A stretch of DNA of 64,000 nucleotides from assembly GCA_902777605.1 (NCBI GenBank), contig CACYUI010000017.1:1-64000 (forward strand). The letters run 5' to 3'. Source of the stretch: an uncultured bacterium (GTDB lineage: Bacteria; Cyanobacteriota; Vampirovibrionia; Gastranaerophilales; Gastranaerophilaceae). The stretch's first letter is position 1. Each line of letters begins with the position of its first letter. Shown here in pieces: positions 7,054 through 48,881 of the stretch. Under the pieces are notes generated by a model. That model was not told the DNA's origin, searched no databases, and worked only from the letters and a program-made list of their open reading frames with translations. The position numbers were made by a program, and so were the translations under genes.

Positions 7054-8724
7054 CTAAAATGTATAACGCGCACCGATTGCGGCTTCGAATATTTTTTCTT
7101 GATTGTGGGAATCAATTCTATAGCTTGCATAACCTGCCTTTGCATATGCATTAAAGTGTTTATTGAATACATAGCTTAATTTTGTTTCTGCGTAATTACA
7201 AAAGTTTTTGGCACTGTCTATAAAAGTTCCTATCCCCAGTTCACCTTTAAATTTACTGTTTTCAGCAATAACTCTAGCATTAGCAATCAAAGTATCACTC
7301 GGTCTGTAACCTGTTAAAATGTTTCGCGATACTTCCAGCAATCCTTTTGTTTTCAGATTCCATCCGTTTCCGAAAGTGATATTCTGACCGGCATTTGCAC
7401 CTAATAATAATGTTGCACCTTCTTTGGACTCATCACCATTTTCTGCCTCTACAACAGTATTTGAAATTTTACCAAACGGTTGAACAAAAGCATAATTATT
7501 ATTTTTTGTTTTGTGTCCAAAATATTGCGCAAATTTAATACCGTATTCTTTGTGATTATTAGTATCTTCAATAATAAGATCTATTGTTGAATTAGGTAAA
7601 GGATTTTTGTGTCCGTCAGCGGGTTTGTCATCAGGTACATAAAGGTTGCTTTGCTTGCCCTCAACATAAGCTTCTTTGCTGTCAATGCCGCCTATTTCTT
7701 CTATTTTACTGTTTTTTGGATTATATTCATCAGGATTCAGAAGTCCTGACTTGCGTCCGATACCTACATCAACATGTGTTGAAGTATATTTTGGCTTTCC
7801 GGGAATAGCAGTTATTTCTTTTTGGAATATTGCGTAGATACCTGTACTGTTTTCCATTGCACCAACATTTATTTCGGTGTTTTTTACACCATCTTTATTA
7901 TTATGTATTGCACCTCCACCATAGGTAAAATAGGAATCTTTGTGTTTCATATAGGCATAAGTATTATAGTCAAGAGTTCTGTTAGTATCTTCTTTATGCA
8001 TATAATTTAAACTGGCAGTTCCACCAAAAATTACTGATGTTTTTTCGTTATTAGTGCAATACAAGTTATCGGAGTATGCTGTTATGTTCAAATCGGATGT
8101 GTTGTCCGTAATATTTCTTTCAAATTTTGAACCTGCAAAATTGTTTGAACTAAATCCTTTTGTTACACTTTTTTCAAAGTAATTCTTTAATAATTTAGAT
8201 TTGCCGCTACCTTGGTCATCATTGCTATCGAACATTTCTTCAATGTCGTTACCATTTTCTTCAATATCAAATAAATCAGAACTATCAAAAGACATATCAT
8301 TATCAATATCGTCATCATCATGATTATTATTGACATTATTAGTTGTATTATTGGCAATATTAGTTGCTTGAGCTGAAAGATTAGCCATTCCCTTGGCAAC
8401 TTTTTTGTCAACGCTGTTTGAAATTGTGCTTGCCATTCCTGTGTTGTTATGAGTCGATGGCATAGATTCTCTAATCCAGTCAGCACCGTTTTCTTTATTC
8501 TGAGAAATTTTTTCTTTTTTTACTTCTTTTGGCTGAGTTGTATTATTAGGTTGATTTCTCCTAATAATAACACAAGAATCTACATTACCATCAGTAGTAT
8601 TCTGCTTTTCAGGGAAAACTTCAATCCCTGCTTGTTCAAGCGCTGCTCTGGATTTGGCAAGAATTTTTTCTCCATATTCTCTATAATTATCTGAATAATC
8701 ATTTAGACCGTTTATATAACTCAT
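7054..8724 (-). CDS. Surface-type protein with a beta-barrel-like C-terminus but no signal peptide
   Basis: About 556 residues. The N-terminal third is hydrophilic and low-complexity, Asn/Asp-rich with a run of acidic residues (about 125-175). From about residue 200 to the end the protein shows repeated amphipathic strands rich in Gly, Asn, Tyr and Thr, and it ends in ARYTF with terminal Phe, as in outer-membrane beta-barrels and autotransporter translocators. No signal peptide is visible, which is odd for a barrel; it may be exported differently, or the resemblance may be to a phase-variable surface protein of another kind. The ATG at 8724 is chosen over an in-frame TTG at 8736 because GAGG lies 7 nt upstream of it. 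It stands alone, convergent with hydE and divergent from the riboswitch operon. No named family is recognised. Confidence 0.75.
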   Translation of the reverse strand: MSYINGLNDYSDNYREYGEKILAKSRAALEQAGIEVFPEKQNTTDGNVDSCVIIRRNQPNNTTQPKEVKKEKISQNKENGADWIRESMPSTHNNTGMASTISNSVDKKVAKGMANLSAQATNIANNTTNNVNNNHDDDDIDNDMSFDSSDLFDIEENGNDIEEMFDSNDDQGSGKSKLLKNYFEKSVTKGFSSNNFAGSKFERNITDNTSDLNITAYSDNLYCTNNEKTSVIFGGTASLNYMHKEDTNRTLDYNTYAYMKHKDSYFTYGGGAIHNNKDGVKNTEINVGAMENSTGIYAIFQKEITAIPGKPKYTSTHVDVGIGRKSGLLNPDEYNPKNSKIEEIGGIDSKEAYVEGKQSNLYVPDDKPADGHKNPLPNSTIDLIIEDTNNHKEYGIKFAQYFGHKTKNNNYAFVQPFGKISNTVVEAENGDESKEGATLLLGANAGQNITFGNGWNLKTKGLLEVSRNILTGYRPSDTLIANARVIAENSKFKGELGIGTFIDSAKNFCNYAETKLSYVFNKHFNAYAKAGYASYRIDSHNQEKIFEAAIGARYTF

Positions 8725-8837
8725 AATATTCCTCAAAAATATCCCTTGTATTTATAAAGAAAAAGTTTTCATAAAAATTGCCTAAAATTTTAACTTTTGT
8801 AAATTAAAGTTTTGTGGTATAAAAATATTATCAATTT

Positions 8838-8903
8838 AATAAGAGGAAACTAAGGGTGTAAGTCCCTGACTGTGCCGCAGCCGTTAAAGTCGGAATACTC
8901 TAA
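8838..8903 (+). ncRNA. Cobalamin (B12) riboswitch, compact type
   Basis: The core reads TTAATA...GGAAAC, then GGGTGTAAGTCCC, then CTGTGCCGCAGC, then GTTAAAGTCGG, which matches in order the conserved B12-box core of cobalamin riboswitches (GGGAA, GGTGnnAAnnCC, CTGnnCCGCAGC, GTAA). The 5' and peripheral arms are short, as in the AdoCbl-variant class. A promoter-like TATAAA is at 8818-8823. It is followed by a repeat insertion (8908-8947) and then a terminator (9007-9042), consistent with transcriptional control of the two genes downstream. The identification rests on the core alone. Confidence 0.8.
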
Positions 8904-8907
8904 AACT

Positions 8908-8947
8908 TTTCCCCTCGCCCAGCGAGAGAGGGAAAGGGTGAGGGGGA
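8908..8947. repeat. Dispersed CCCCTC-hairpin repeat inside the riboswitch expression platform
   Basis: CCCCTCGC and GAGAGGG arms with a short loop, then AAGGGTGAGGGGG. It belongs to the same GC-rich family as 311-332. It lies between the cobalamin aptamer and the downstream terminator. Confidence 0.55.
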
Positions 8948-9006
8948 GATAATTTAGACTTATCCCCTTTCAACAAGGAATAATGCTTCGATTCAAAGTA
9001 TTATTG

Positions 9007-9042
9007 ATACTTTTCTATGCGAAGCACAGAAAGGTATTTTTT
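9007..9042 (+). terminator. Riboswitch-linked intrinsic terminator with a competing helix
   Basis: Arms ATACTTTTCT (9007-9016) and AGAAAGGTAT (9028-9037) with an inner TGC-GAA-GCA mini-stem, followed by six T. The inner arm GCGAAGCA can also pair with ATGCTTCG at about 8983-8990, which would break up the terminator. This is a plausible switching element. Confidence 0.65.
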
Positions 9043-9073
9043 ATTGTCAAATTCTGTGCCACAAGTAAATAAA

Positions 9074-9730
9074 ATGTCATCGGGATTGTGTCCGCACGGT
9101 TGTGCTCCCGGAGCCTGTCCTATTTGTTCAGGAATGGGCGGAGGAAGTATGCGTATGGGTGAGCGCCCTCAAAAGGCCGGTGAAATGTCATATCATCAGT
9201 GTGCAATGATAGGTGCAATGATGAAGGCTCGTGCTGCACAGGAAAAAGCTCATGAAGAAAATATGATGCGTCACATTGAATTGTTGACAAAATTTGAACA
9301 TACAATGGCGAATCTATCTCAAAAACTTGCTGAATTTACAAATAGGATTTCTAATAATATTCTTTTAAAACCTGTAGTTTTTACAATTAATAAGCTATTT
9401 GTTCCGATTTTAAATATTGTTCAAAATATTCCGAATATCATTAGTAATATTGCTGAGAAAATTACACAAATTAAAGAAAAATTTGTTGATATTCAAGACA
9501 AATTAAATGCACTGTTTGGCGAAGCCAAGGCTTTTGTTGAGAAAAAAATATCCGAACTGGTTTCTAATATTAAATCAAAATTAGAAACGCTGTTTAAAAT
9601 TTTTAAGAGAAACAACACAAAAGATGATGAAACAAAAATTGATGAAGATAAAAAAATATTTACATTAAAAACTTTTATACAAAAATTACGGAAGAAAAAA
9701 GATGATACAGAAAATAACGCAAGATCTTGA
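9074..9730 (+). CDS. Unknown helical protein with a Cys/His-rich N-terminus, first gene after the cobalamin riboswitch
   Basis: 218 residues. The N-terminus carries a compact Cys/His cluster (Cys6, His8, Cys10, Cys14, Cys17 in CPHGCAPGACPIC), then a Met/Gly-rich stretch and YHQC, suggesting metal or cofactor binding. The rest is predicted long amphipathic helices, some hydrophobic enough to lie on or in a membrane (about residues 85-130), with a basic, charged C-terminus. No family is recognised. The ATG at 9074 is preferred over one at 9017, which lies in the loop of the riboswitch terminator. It overlaps the next gene by 29 nt, so the two form an operon. Riboswitch position implies expression when cobalamin is scarce, if it is a usual OFF switch; a role in cobalamin or cobalt handling is inferred from this alone. 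Confidence 0.72.
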   Translation: MSSGLCPHGCAPGACPICSGMGGGSMRMGERPQKAGEMSYHQCAMIGAMMKARAAQEKAHEENMMRHIELLTKFEHTMANLSQKLAEFTNRISNNILLKPVVFTINKLFVPILNIVQNIPNIISNIAEKITQIKEKFVDIQDKLNALFGEAKAFVEKKISELVSNIKSKLETLFKIFKRNNTKDDETKIDEDKKIFTLKTFIQKLRKKKDDTENNARS

Positions 9731-11186
9731 ATCTACAAGACATCAAAAAAACATGACGAATACTCAAAAGAAAAATGATTCTTATGTAAAGGAAGGAATT
9801 ATTGTAAATTCGTATGTTAAAGATCCTCTTTTATCTTTAGATGAAACATACGATTCTCTTGTAATATCAAAGAACCCTATTAAACTTCCCGAAAAATTAT
9901 CAGAAAAAGAAAAAAATACAAAAAATATTTTGTACCCTCTTTGCGGTATTACTCTTGGTGTAATGGGTGTTTTGGGCGGATTTACTGCCATGATGAAGAG
10001 ATTTTCTAAGGAAAAATTGGAATCATCCAAAGAATATTTGCTCCCCGGAATTACGAGAAATCATTGTATTAATAATGAAATTCATCAAAGTATTTTCAGT
10101 ATGATACAATCCCCGAACAGAAAAACAATTCTTGCCTCTGTTGGTGTAATAACCCTTGGTTCTATGGCTTTTATGGGAAAAATTTTTATTGACGGATTTA
10201 AGGAAGTATGGGTGAAACAACAAGAAGCAGATATCCAAAAGAACCTTCAAGAAAATCTTATTGCAGTAGAAACACAATCTTTTTCCGGCAAACTGCAAAT
10301 TATTAGAAGTCTTTTATCAACAAAGGCAAAAATGTTTAGTGATGAACTTTCTTTTCAAGGGAAGAATAATAAAGACAGTAAATCCAAAAAATCTTCTGAC
10401 AACATAAAACTGTTTTTGATAGGTGGAGCGACTTTGGCTTCAATATTCGGACTCGGTTATTATGCATTCAGAAACATTAGAAAAAGTGATGAATACATCA
10501 AAAACGGAATTAAAAATACAAAACTTGGATTAGATAACATAATAAAAGAGTTTAACGAAGGAAAACCGTTAAATAATTTAGAAAATCATAAAGGCGAACT
10601 TTTATCAGGGAAAGATGCGTATAAATTTTTGATAGAAAATATGCTGGAAACAGTTTATGCAACAGAAGGTGAAATAGAGGCGGCTCTAAAAAAATTAAAT
10701 ATACCTGAAGAAGAAAAAAAAGAATTTATTAACAAACTCAAATCCGATATGATTCAAGCAACAGAAAAGGTTAATCCTACAATTGGAGGCTCAGGCAGAA
10801 ACAAAATTACATATTTTTCACATGTAAATGATTATCTGTCTTTCTTTTACGATTGGCTTATGAATCCTAAAAATCCTCAGTTCAAGAACTTATTTTTTGG
10901 AATCGCAGGAATTTCTGCGTTGGGTTATAGCGGCAAAGCAGCAGCAGAAGCTATAAAAGAGGTTCAGGTAAAAAAATATAATGCCGATATAGAACTTAAT
11001 TTGCAAAAAAGACTTGTTGCAACAGAGCTTAGGAATTTTAAAGCAAAAAAAGATTCTGCAATTGAACCGTTGTGTGAGGAATTTATTAAGCAAAAAAGAG
11101 CAGGAAAATCTCGTGAGGAGCTGAAAGTAGTTGCTGATAACATACTATTTGAAATTAAAAACGGACCGCCGTTTGTTTATTCATAA
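9702..11186 (+). CDS. Unknown multi-pass membrane protein, second gene of the riboswitch operon, with an internal duplication
   Basis: 494 residues with four likely membrane segments (about 77-98, 142-164, 236-257 and 397-415) separated by charged helical stretches. Residues ~140-198 and ~393-450 are related: each has a membrane segment, then an EV-x-VK motif, ADI-x-x-NLQ and a VATE- or AVETQ-like end, so the protein arose by internal duplication. No known transporter motif is seen. The start at 9702 has GGAAG at proper distance; an ATG at 9753 is an alternative. It overlaps the preceding gene, and a strong terminator follows at 11196-11229. Regulation by the upstream cobalamin riboswitch is expected. 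Function unknown. Confidence 0.72.
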   Translation: MIQKITQDLESTRHQKNMTNTQKKNDSYVKEGIIVNSYVKDPLLSLDETYDSLVISKNPIKLPEKLSEKEKNTKNILYPLCGITLGVMGVLGGFTAMMKRFSKEKLESSKEYLLPGITRNHCINNEIHQSIFSMIQSPNRKTILASVGVITLGSMAFMGKIFIDGFKEVWVKQQEADIQKNLQENLIAVETQSFSGKLQIIRSLLSTKAKMFSDELSFQGKNNKDSKSKKSSDNIKLFLIGGATLASIFGLGYYAFRNIRKSDEYIKNGIKNTKLGLDNIIKEFNEGKPLNNLENHKGELLSGKDAYKFLIENMLETVYATEGEIEAALKKLNIPEEEKKEFINKLKSDMIQATEKVNPTIGGSGRNKITYFSHVNDYLSFFYDWLMNPKNPQFKNLFFGIAGISALGYSGKAAAEAIKEVQVKKYNADIELNLQKRLVATELRNFKAKKDSAIEPLCEEFIKQKRAGKSREELKVVADNILFEIKNGPPFVYS

Positions 11187-11195
11187 ACAAAAAGA

Positions 11196-11231
11196 AAGGT
11201 GCTGAAATTTGGTTTCAACACCTTCTTTTTA
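11196..11231 (+). terminator. Bidirectional intrinsic terminator
   Basis: Arms AAGGTGCTGAAA (11196-11207) and TTTCAACACCTT (11213-11224) with A-rich flank before and T-rich flank after. It ends the riboswitch operon. Confidence 0.8.
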
Positions 11232-47308: not shown

Positions 47309-48229
47309 TTGGATTTCAATGAAATTGCAGAAAAATGCGGAGTAGATACAAAGCCTCCCGAAGAGGTGATAAGAAATCTGTCCGAACTTGATCAGATGTA
47401 TAACAGTACAGAGCTTGTGCAGATATACAATTTTCTGTTGAATAATGTAAAAAACAATGTAATACTTGAAGAAATTGTTAAACTCTCTGATTCACACAGA
47501 GATAAATCCACCCTTGATATTTTGCAAAATATACTTCTTCAAAAAATCAGACTTAGTGTTGATGAAGATTTGGTTTCGCTACGCGCTATGTGCGCGAAAG
47601 TTATCGCGAATTATAAAGAAACATCGACTCTTACGGCACTTTTGCACTGCCTTAATGATAAACATGAAAATTATAAGATAAGACTTGCTTGCGCTGATGC
47701 ACTCGGCAGAATTGGCGATCCGTTTGCAGTTGCACCGCTTATTAATGTTGTAAAAGACGAGGACGAAAAGTCTATTTATGTAAAAGAATCTGCAACTTTT
47801 GCGCTCGGTCTTTTAGGTGATACAAGTGCTGTTGACCCGCTTGTTGCTATAATGGAAGCTAAGCAAGGACTTTGGGACAAGTTTTCATTTTTAAAAGAAA
47901 AGATTGTAGAAGCTCTCGGAAAGTTAAATATCAACAGTTATAAGGTATTAAAAGTTTACAAAACCTCACTAATGGATTCTTCACCTATGGTCAGAATTAA
48001 TGCAATTGAAGCACTTATGAACAGTGATTTTGAAGAATCAGAAGACCTGATAAGAACGGCTTTACATGATGAGGATGAAGAAGTTCAAAGAAATGCGCTT
48101 ATTGCGTTATATAATATGATAGGCGGCGATATATTAGAGGAAATTATTTCGCTTCCAAGCTATTCCGAATTTTTGAAAGAGGAGGCTAAAAACCTGCAAG
48201 AAGAATACGAGGAAGAAGAAAATGAGTAA
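47309..48229 (+). CDS. HEAT-repeat protein
   Basis: About 306 residues, probably starting with TTG at 47309, 7 nt after AAGGGAG. From residue ~85 there are repeated helix pairs typical of HEAT/PBS-lyase repeats (RLACADALGRIGDPFAVAPL, KESATFALGLLGDTSAVDPL, VRINAIEALMNSD, VQRNALIALYNMIGG). Such proteins are scaffolds for protein interaction; the PBS-lyase type is abundant in cyanobacterial lineages. The C-terminus is acidic and overlaps queC by 8 nt, so it is in an operon with queC. Confidence 0.85.
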   Translation: MDFNEIAEKCGVDTKPPEEVIRNLSELDQMYNSTELVQIYNFLLNNVKNNVILEEIVKLSDSHRDKSTLDILQNILLQKIRLSVDEDLVSLRAMCAKVIANYKETSTLTALLHCLNDKHENYKIRLACADALGRIGDPFAVAPLINVVKDEDEKSIYVKESATFALGLLGDTSAVDPLVAIMEAKQGLWDKFSFLKEKIVEALGKLNINSYKVLKVYKTSLMDSSPMVRINAIEALMNSDFEESEDLIRTALHDEDEEVQRNALIALYNMIGGDILEEIISLPSYSEFLKEEAKNLQEEYEEEENE

Positions 48230-48881
48230 AAGTATAATTCTTCTCTCTGGTGGACTGGACTCAATTGTTGCACTCGGAGTATCAAAAAAAGAGCTTGGTA
48301 TAGAATTGGCAATAACCTTTGATTACGGTCAAAAAAGTGCCAAAAGCGAGATTGAGGCATCTAAAAAAATATGTGAATACTATTCAATTGAGCATAAAGT
48401 TATAAAGCTCGATTGGTTAAAAGAAATAACTAAAACCTCGCTTGTATCAAGCAATAATATACCTACTGAAAATTTAGGTACAGAAGAAAGTGCAAAAGCA
48501 GTATGGGTTCCAAACAGAAATGGTTTATTCTTAAATATTGCCGCTTCTTTTGCAGACTCTTACGGTTACGATTACATTATATACGGTGCAAATAAAGATG
48601 AAGGTGCAACATTTCCTGATAATACAGAAGAATTTAGGAATCAAATTTCTAAACTTTTTGAAACCTCAACACTCAAAAAACCTAAGGTTCTAGCTCCCTT
48701 GATAAATTATACTAAGAGTGATATAGTTAAAATTGCAATTGCAGAGTCGATACCTCTTGAGTTTGTAAGAAGCTGCTATTCTTCTGATAACAAACATTGC
48801 GGAGTATGTGAATCTTGCAGGCATTTAAAAAATGCATTAGAAAAAAATAACGCACAAGAATATATCAATATATTATTTTAG
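48222..48881 (+). CDS. queC: 7-cyano-7-deazaguanine synthase QueC
   Basis: 219 residues. It makes preQ0 from 7-carboxy-7-deazaguanine with ATP and ammonia, for queuosine in tRNA or 7-deazaguanine DNA bases. The PP-loop SGGLDSIVAL (9-18) is at the N-terminus and the zinc-binding cysteines are in CYSSDNKHCGVCESC near the C-terminus. The start overlaps the HEAT gene by 8 nt. Other queuosine genes (queD, queE, queF, tgt) are not in the window. Confidence 0.95.
   Translation: MSKSIILLSGGLDSIVALGVSKKELGIELAITFDYGQKSAKSEIEASKKICEYYSIEHKVIKLDWLKEITKTSLVSSNNIPTENLGTEESAKAVWVPNRNGLFLNIAASFADSYGYDYIIYGANKDEGATFPDNTEEFRNQISKLFETSTLKKPKVLAPLINYTKSDIVKIAIAESIPLEFVRSCYSSDNKHCGVCESCRHLKNALEKNNAQEYINILF

Follow-up and report, generated by a model that had tools for sequence, protein, structure and literature searches.

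Which function is kept under B12 control in a lineage of gut bacteria whose genomes mostly lack those markers of import and synthesis of the vitamin that were searched for? Reliance on corrinoids from other organisms is common among gut bacteria, some of which appear to have no known importer. The question is raised by a locus in a 64,000-nucleotide stretch of DNA (contig CACYUI010000017.1 of assembly GCA_902777605.1, positions 1 to 64,000; hereafter the window) from an uncultured member of the Gastranaerophilales, a widespread order of gut bacteria that retains a B12 switch in front of two uncharacterised membrane-associated proteins (Table 1). Should these proteins import B12, they would represent a new kind of vitamin transport and explain the cofactor supply of the NrdJ-dependent auxotrophs of the order; should they not, they would constitute a new target of B12 regulation. 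Our literature search found no account of B12 riboswitches or B12 uptake in this order. We tentatively favour the reading that genes 1 and 2, joined by a third gene in most relatives beyond the closest genus, form a new, lineage-specific module for corrinoid acquisition. The link of the operon to B12 is strong, and uptake is the best-supported, though unproven, function.

Table 1. Coordinates of the features of the riboswitch-operon locus in the window.
Feature	Position	Strand	Basis
AdoCbl-II cobalamin riboswitch aptamer	8832..8908	+	cmscan RF01689; P4/P6 covariation in 38 leaders
P5/L5 region UGUGCCGCA; complement in the RBS-hairpin loop, split in the window	8871..8879	+	sequence; loop UGCGGCA or near variant in many leaders of the genus
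Palindromic GC-rich insert separating the aptamer from the expression platform	8911..8945	+	single match in the window
Leader hairpin UAAUGCUUCGAUUCAAAGUAUUA	8981..9003	+	fold; similar hairpins in many leaders of the genus
P13-like hairpin that sequesters the Shine-Dalgarno in its 3' arm and, with the U-run behind it, also resembles a terminator	9006..9038	+	fold
Gene 1 (228 aa, initiated at TTG) with the Cys/His motif CPHGxxxGxCPIC at the N terminus, a Gly-rich linker and amphipathic helices	9044..9730	+	
Gene 2, 494 aa membrane protein; internal duplication, long helices, C-terminal EIKxGxP motif	9702..11186	+	alignments, duplication, model
Hairpin, possible terminator shared by the operon and the convergent flagellin gene	11195..11225		terminator scan

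The preliminary description of this DNA had proposed a cobalamin riboswitch, to be checked with cobalamin covariance models, and the search bears it out: cmscan reported an AdoCbl-II match (RF01689) that spans the full model (1-81) and, with 39.1 bits, exceeds the gathering score of 36.5 (E 8.9e-6). It is the only cobalamin riboswitch in the window; the older model RF00174 gave a sub-threshold score only (22.5 bits over 8799-8988), and a search of the whole genome of origin with both models returned no second match. In 38 homologous leaders, compensatory changes were found at four of the seven predicted pairs of P4 and P6, with both sides changed in 17, 16, 12, and 6 sequences. The aptamer is predicted to bind a cobalamin and to change expression.

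The further claim of a terminator with a competing helix stands in part. The hairpin at 9006-9038 is indeed followed by a U-rich run, but its 3' arm also holds the Shine-Dalgarno sequence AAAGG (9030-9034), which is fully paired there and lies nine bases 5' of the TTG at 9044; the competing helix is putative. Folding of the final 66 nt of the leader gives a z of -3.6. Although the terminator scan did not list this hairpin, it combines the architecture of an RBS-sequestering switch with that of a terminator, and translational control is no less likely than termination, since the 3' arm carries the Shine-Dalgarno sequence of gene 1. The arrangement recurs: among 76 homologous leaders, 73 have a Shine-Dalgarno-like motif, which in 60 of these 73 lies within the 3' arm (counted when at least three of its five bases do), and a U-run is found in 56.

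Kissing-loop (L5-L13) control of an RBS hairpin has been established for E. coli btuB and env8HyCbl (PMC10653944), and this leader may conceivably be controlled in the same way, as the hairpin loop of many leaders of the genus (UGCGGCA or a near variant) is complementary to UGCCGCA in P5/L5. In the window this complement is split (UGCG-AA-GCAC), a complementary loop is mostly not seen in the RBS hairpin of other genera, and the pairing yielded no clean covariation count. Like the btuB/env8HyCbl type, the leader comprises a full-model aptamer, an RBS hairpin, and, in many relatives, a loop complementary to P5/L5; unlike that type, it has the AA interruption of the loop complement, a U-run after the hairpin, and an intervening palindrome of 35 nt, which occurs once in the window where no match is expected. 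Roughly where the window has this palindrome, other genomes have leader inserts of a different sequence, GC-rich or tandem. The likeness of the hairpin at 8981-9003 to others in the genus was judged by eye. As for the hairpin downstream of the operon, the scan reports it on the minus strand, and T-rich sequence follows it on the plus strand as well.

For gene 1 the most likely start codon is TTG 9044, judging from the conserved spacing to the Cys/His motif: in most of the 77 homologous loci with the motif, a start codon lies 15 codons 5' of the first cysteine. The alternative ATG at 9017 was rejected because it falls inside the leader hairpin and departs from this conserved position. The Cys/His-rich motif CPHGCAPGACPIC to which the preliminary description had drawn attention is real, with C16, H18, C25, and C28 invariant in both an 18-sequence and a 44-sequence alignment. 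The amphipathic helices make up the C-terminal half of the protein; weak Pfam matches (Cob_adeno_trans with 13 bits, apolipoproteins, baculovirus PEP) are below cut-off and typical of such helices and were therefore discarded. The structure models of both proteins are of low confidence (pLDDT 59.8 and 61.2 for genes 1 and 2), and the Cys/His motif falls in a low-confidence part of the gene 1 model.

Gene 2 overlaps the end of gene 1 (9702 versus 9730) and had been described as encoding a duplicated four-helix membrane protein. The duplication is evident from comparison of its halves by hhalign (97.6%, E 2.9e-12, 86 columns) and BLASTP (38% over 50 aa). By a simple threshold, the protein has three hydrophobic segments (76-94, 143-161, and 235-253); the second of them has a lower-scoring counterpart in the duplicated half, at about 395-413, so that the four-helix membrane part is plausible but not proven. 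Two helices of about 75 residues are predicted in the model, and the C-terminal EIKxGxP is conserved across the order. The statement that both genes match no known B12 family likewise held: neither has significant relatives in Pfam, NCBIfam, PHROGs, or PDB, and a PDB fold search with the gene 2 model returned nothing significant. In particular, Pfam gave no FecCD permease and no TonB plug or barrel, Pfam and NCBIfam gave no match above cut-off (PF02310 included), and no enzyme signature was found in either protein.

The recurrence of switch and genes together also links the operon to B12. Gene 1 is encoded by 96 of 144 relatives, and in 90 of 97 gene 1 matches an AdoCbl-II match lies 5' on the same strand at a distance of 86-412 bp (median 145); such loci occur in several families of the order. 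The preliminary description was to be abandoned if the cobalamin models found nothing or if homologues occurred elsewhere without a link to B12; what was found instead is a model match and a riboswitch ahead of 90 of 97 homologues. Within its own genus (65 genomes), gene 1 is present in 62 genomes and the riboswitch in 61, and the three genomes without gene 1 (G024, G048, G058) are also without the riboswitch. Outside the genus, every one of the 20 loci read has gene 2 after gene 1, and 14 of these 20 as well as most of L191-L215 continue with a conserved third gene. This third gene, noted downstream of gene 2 at L063-L078, encodes some 150-190 aa, has the motif EE(I/V)GGA close to its end, and is not in the 64,000-nt window. 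Other flanking genes are unconserved; switch and operon thus travel as a single unit through changing surroundings.

What the operon may contribute is suggested by the supply of and demand for B12 in these genomes. On the supply side, BtuC-type FecCD permeases occur within the family (f1) only in G076 and G082, and TonB plug domains only in G076, G082, and G068; the genome of origin has neither. No ECF T-component (PF02361) was found in this genome or the family, and no CbiC in the family. On the demand side, NrdJ, the B12-dependent ribonucleotide reductase, is found in most other genera of f1 and families of the order, and in none of the own genus (65 genomes). Among NrdJ-positive genomes across the order outside the own genus, gene 1 is present in 27 of 28 without FecCD or CbiC versus 3 of 8 with either (Fisher p = 0.0008) and, with one genome per genus, in 23 of 24 versus 2 of 6 (p 0.0026), figures to be read in the light of the shared ancestry of these genomes, of their being mostly MAGs, and of distant gene 1 homologues that may have been missed. 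With the caution as to ancestry and MAGs, this is the classical missing-transporter pattern. Against this reading, three genomes (G076, G091, G096) carry both the operon and a known import or synthesis marker. As the genomes of the order are mostly without the importers and synthesis markers searched for, the operon may be an undiscovered route of B12 acquisition. Of the functions listed in the preliminary description (uptake, storage, substitute), it is accordingly uptake that the distribution of FecCD, TonB, ECF, CbiC, and NrdJ favours as the putative function.

The main doubt lies in the own genus, whose need for B12 is no more than putative, given that NrdJ is absent, QueG was not found above cut-off, and a MetH-sized frame with a B12-binding domain was seen in only 6 of 65 genomes. 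The one B12-binding-domain match in the genome of origin is a radical SAM protein with sub-threshold resemblance to HpnJ and BchE. Some members of the genus (such as G041 and G059) have no PF02310 match, though their switch and gene 1 are intact. The adenosyltransferase PF01923 scored above cut-off nowhere in the class, de novo producers included, and its search hence says nothing about B12 use. As a separate observation, an ORF of the window (48222-48881, plus strand) reads like QueC and QueG was not found in the genome, a combination that would suggest a B12-independent route to queuosine.

If corrinoid acquisition is indeed the function, the operon would be translated at low cobalamin, when the AdoCbl-II aptamer is empty and the hairpin at 9006-9038 opens. 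Upon cobalamin binding, P5/L5 would pair with the hairpin loop, stabilising the hairpin and hiding the Shine-Dalgarno sequence, and the operon would be off; the stabilised hairpin may also end transcription at the U-run. Gene 2 would provide the inner-membrane component and gene 1 its partner, equipped with the Cys/His motif and presumably membrane-active amphipathic helices. The operon resembles the BtuB-BtuCD-F operons in cobalamin-riboswitch regulation, in the likely membrane location of gene 2, and in a nearly complementary distribution in the order, but it differs from them in having no TonB receptor, FecCD permease, or ATPase and no sequence relation. That genes 1 and 2 are unrelated to any transporter, either by sequence in the family searches or by fold in the gene 2 search, argues against transport. 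A precedent is offered by BtuH and BtuG of Bacteroidetes, accessory cobamide-binding, riboswitch-linked proteins whose fold was once unknown and whose role turned out to lie in B12 uptake (PMC8941943). The likeness lies in riboswitch-linked proteins of gut bacteria without a recognised fold; the difference is that the BtuH and BtuG loci hold canonical transport genes, whereas genes 1 and 2 are without any family match.

The company that the same riboswitch keeps elsewhere in the class bears on the alternatives. In relatives, AdoCbl-II also precedes nrdDG, metE, a TonB receptor with FecCD permease and ATPase, cbiM, and a prpBC-like cluster (genes at loci without a Pfam scan were assigned by reading the sequences), and G082, which has no gene 1, carries it before a btuB-btuC-btuD-like cluster. 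The genes prpB, prpC, and prpD represent a B12-independent propionate route; in one locus (L117 of G123) the switch precedes genes that read like all three, the first alone having been scanned against Pfam. In another (L090, G076:C7) it precedes an uncharacterised 94-aa ORF, in a genome that also has gene 1 and FecCD.

With nrdDG, metE, and prpBC-like genes, B12-independent alternatives do stand behind this riboswitch in the same class, and the own genus keeps the operon despite the few B12-dependent enzymes found; still, it appears unlikely that the operon is itself a substitute or back-up for a cobalamin-dependent process, turned on when B12 is short, as neither protein bears an enzyme signature, the architecture is one of membrane segments and coiled coils, and the presence of the operon tracks missing import and synthesis genes, which a substitute would not require. 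We give little credence to a role in corrinoid or cobalt storage, chaperoning, or remodelling at the inner membrane, in which the Cys/His motif would bind the metal. Riboswitch control and the four invariant residues would fit, but B12 should induce rather than repress such proteins if the switch is an OFF switch, and a Cys3His motif, situated moreover in a low-confidence part of the model, suits zinc equally. A structure of the envelope or surface that has nothing to do with B12 chemistry, and for which B12 were a nutrient signal only, would agree with the two predicted helices of some 75 residues, the lineage-restricted families, and the little B12 dependence of the own genus, but is improbable in view of the association of the operon with genome B12 status and the joint loss of switch and gene.

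Returning to corrinoid acquisition, a second riboswitch-linked pair without assigned family was encountered in the class-level families f12 and f10 (L084, L085, L089, L097, L106, L108, L109), gene A of the pair being present in L086 and L091, too. It encodes a protein of 480-590 aa in which segments are repeated and a smaller one with a Gly linker, and the one pair scanned had no Pfam match. The parallel to genes 1 and 2 is twofold: a large helical and a smaller Gly-linker protein lie behind the same riboswitch, and the genomes concerned are without FecCD, CbiC, and ECF matches. Homology between the two pairs was not supported, as hhalign found none for the large proteins and, for the small ones, a 36-column helical match only. 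It is possible, if rather doubtful, that the Gastranaerophilales have replaced the BtuBCDF and ECF routes by a B12 importer of unrecognised families, with a second, unrelated apparatus in sister families.

Two minor points concern other proteins of the window. An F-x-G motif considered as a common feature of window proteins was not above chance. Upstream of the riboswitch, on the minus strand (7054-8736), lies a divergently oriented gene with no Pfam or NCBIfam match and no relative among the fetched loci; its 560-aa product has a C-terminal half that looks like a beta-barrel and ends in Phe.
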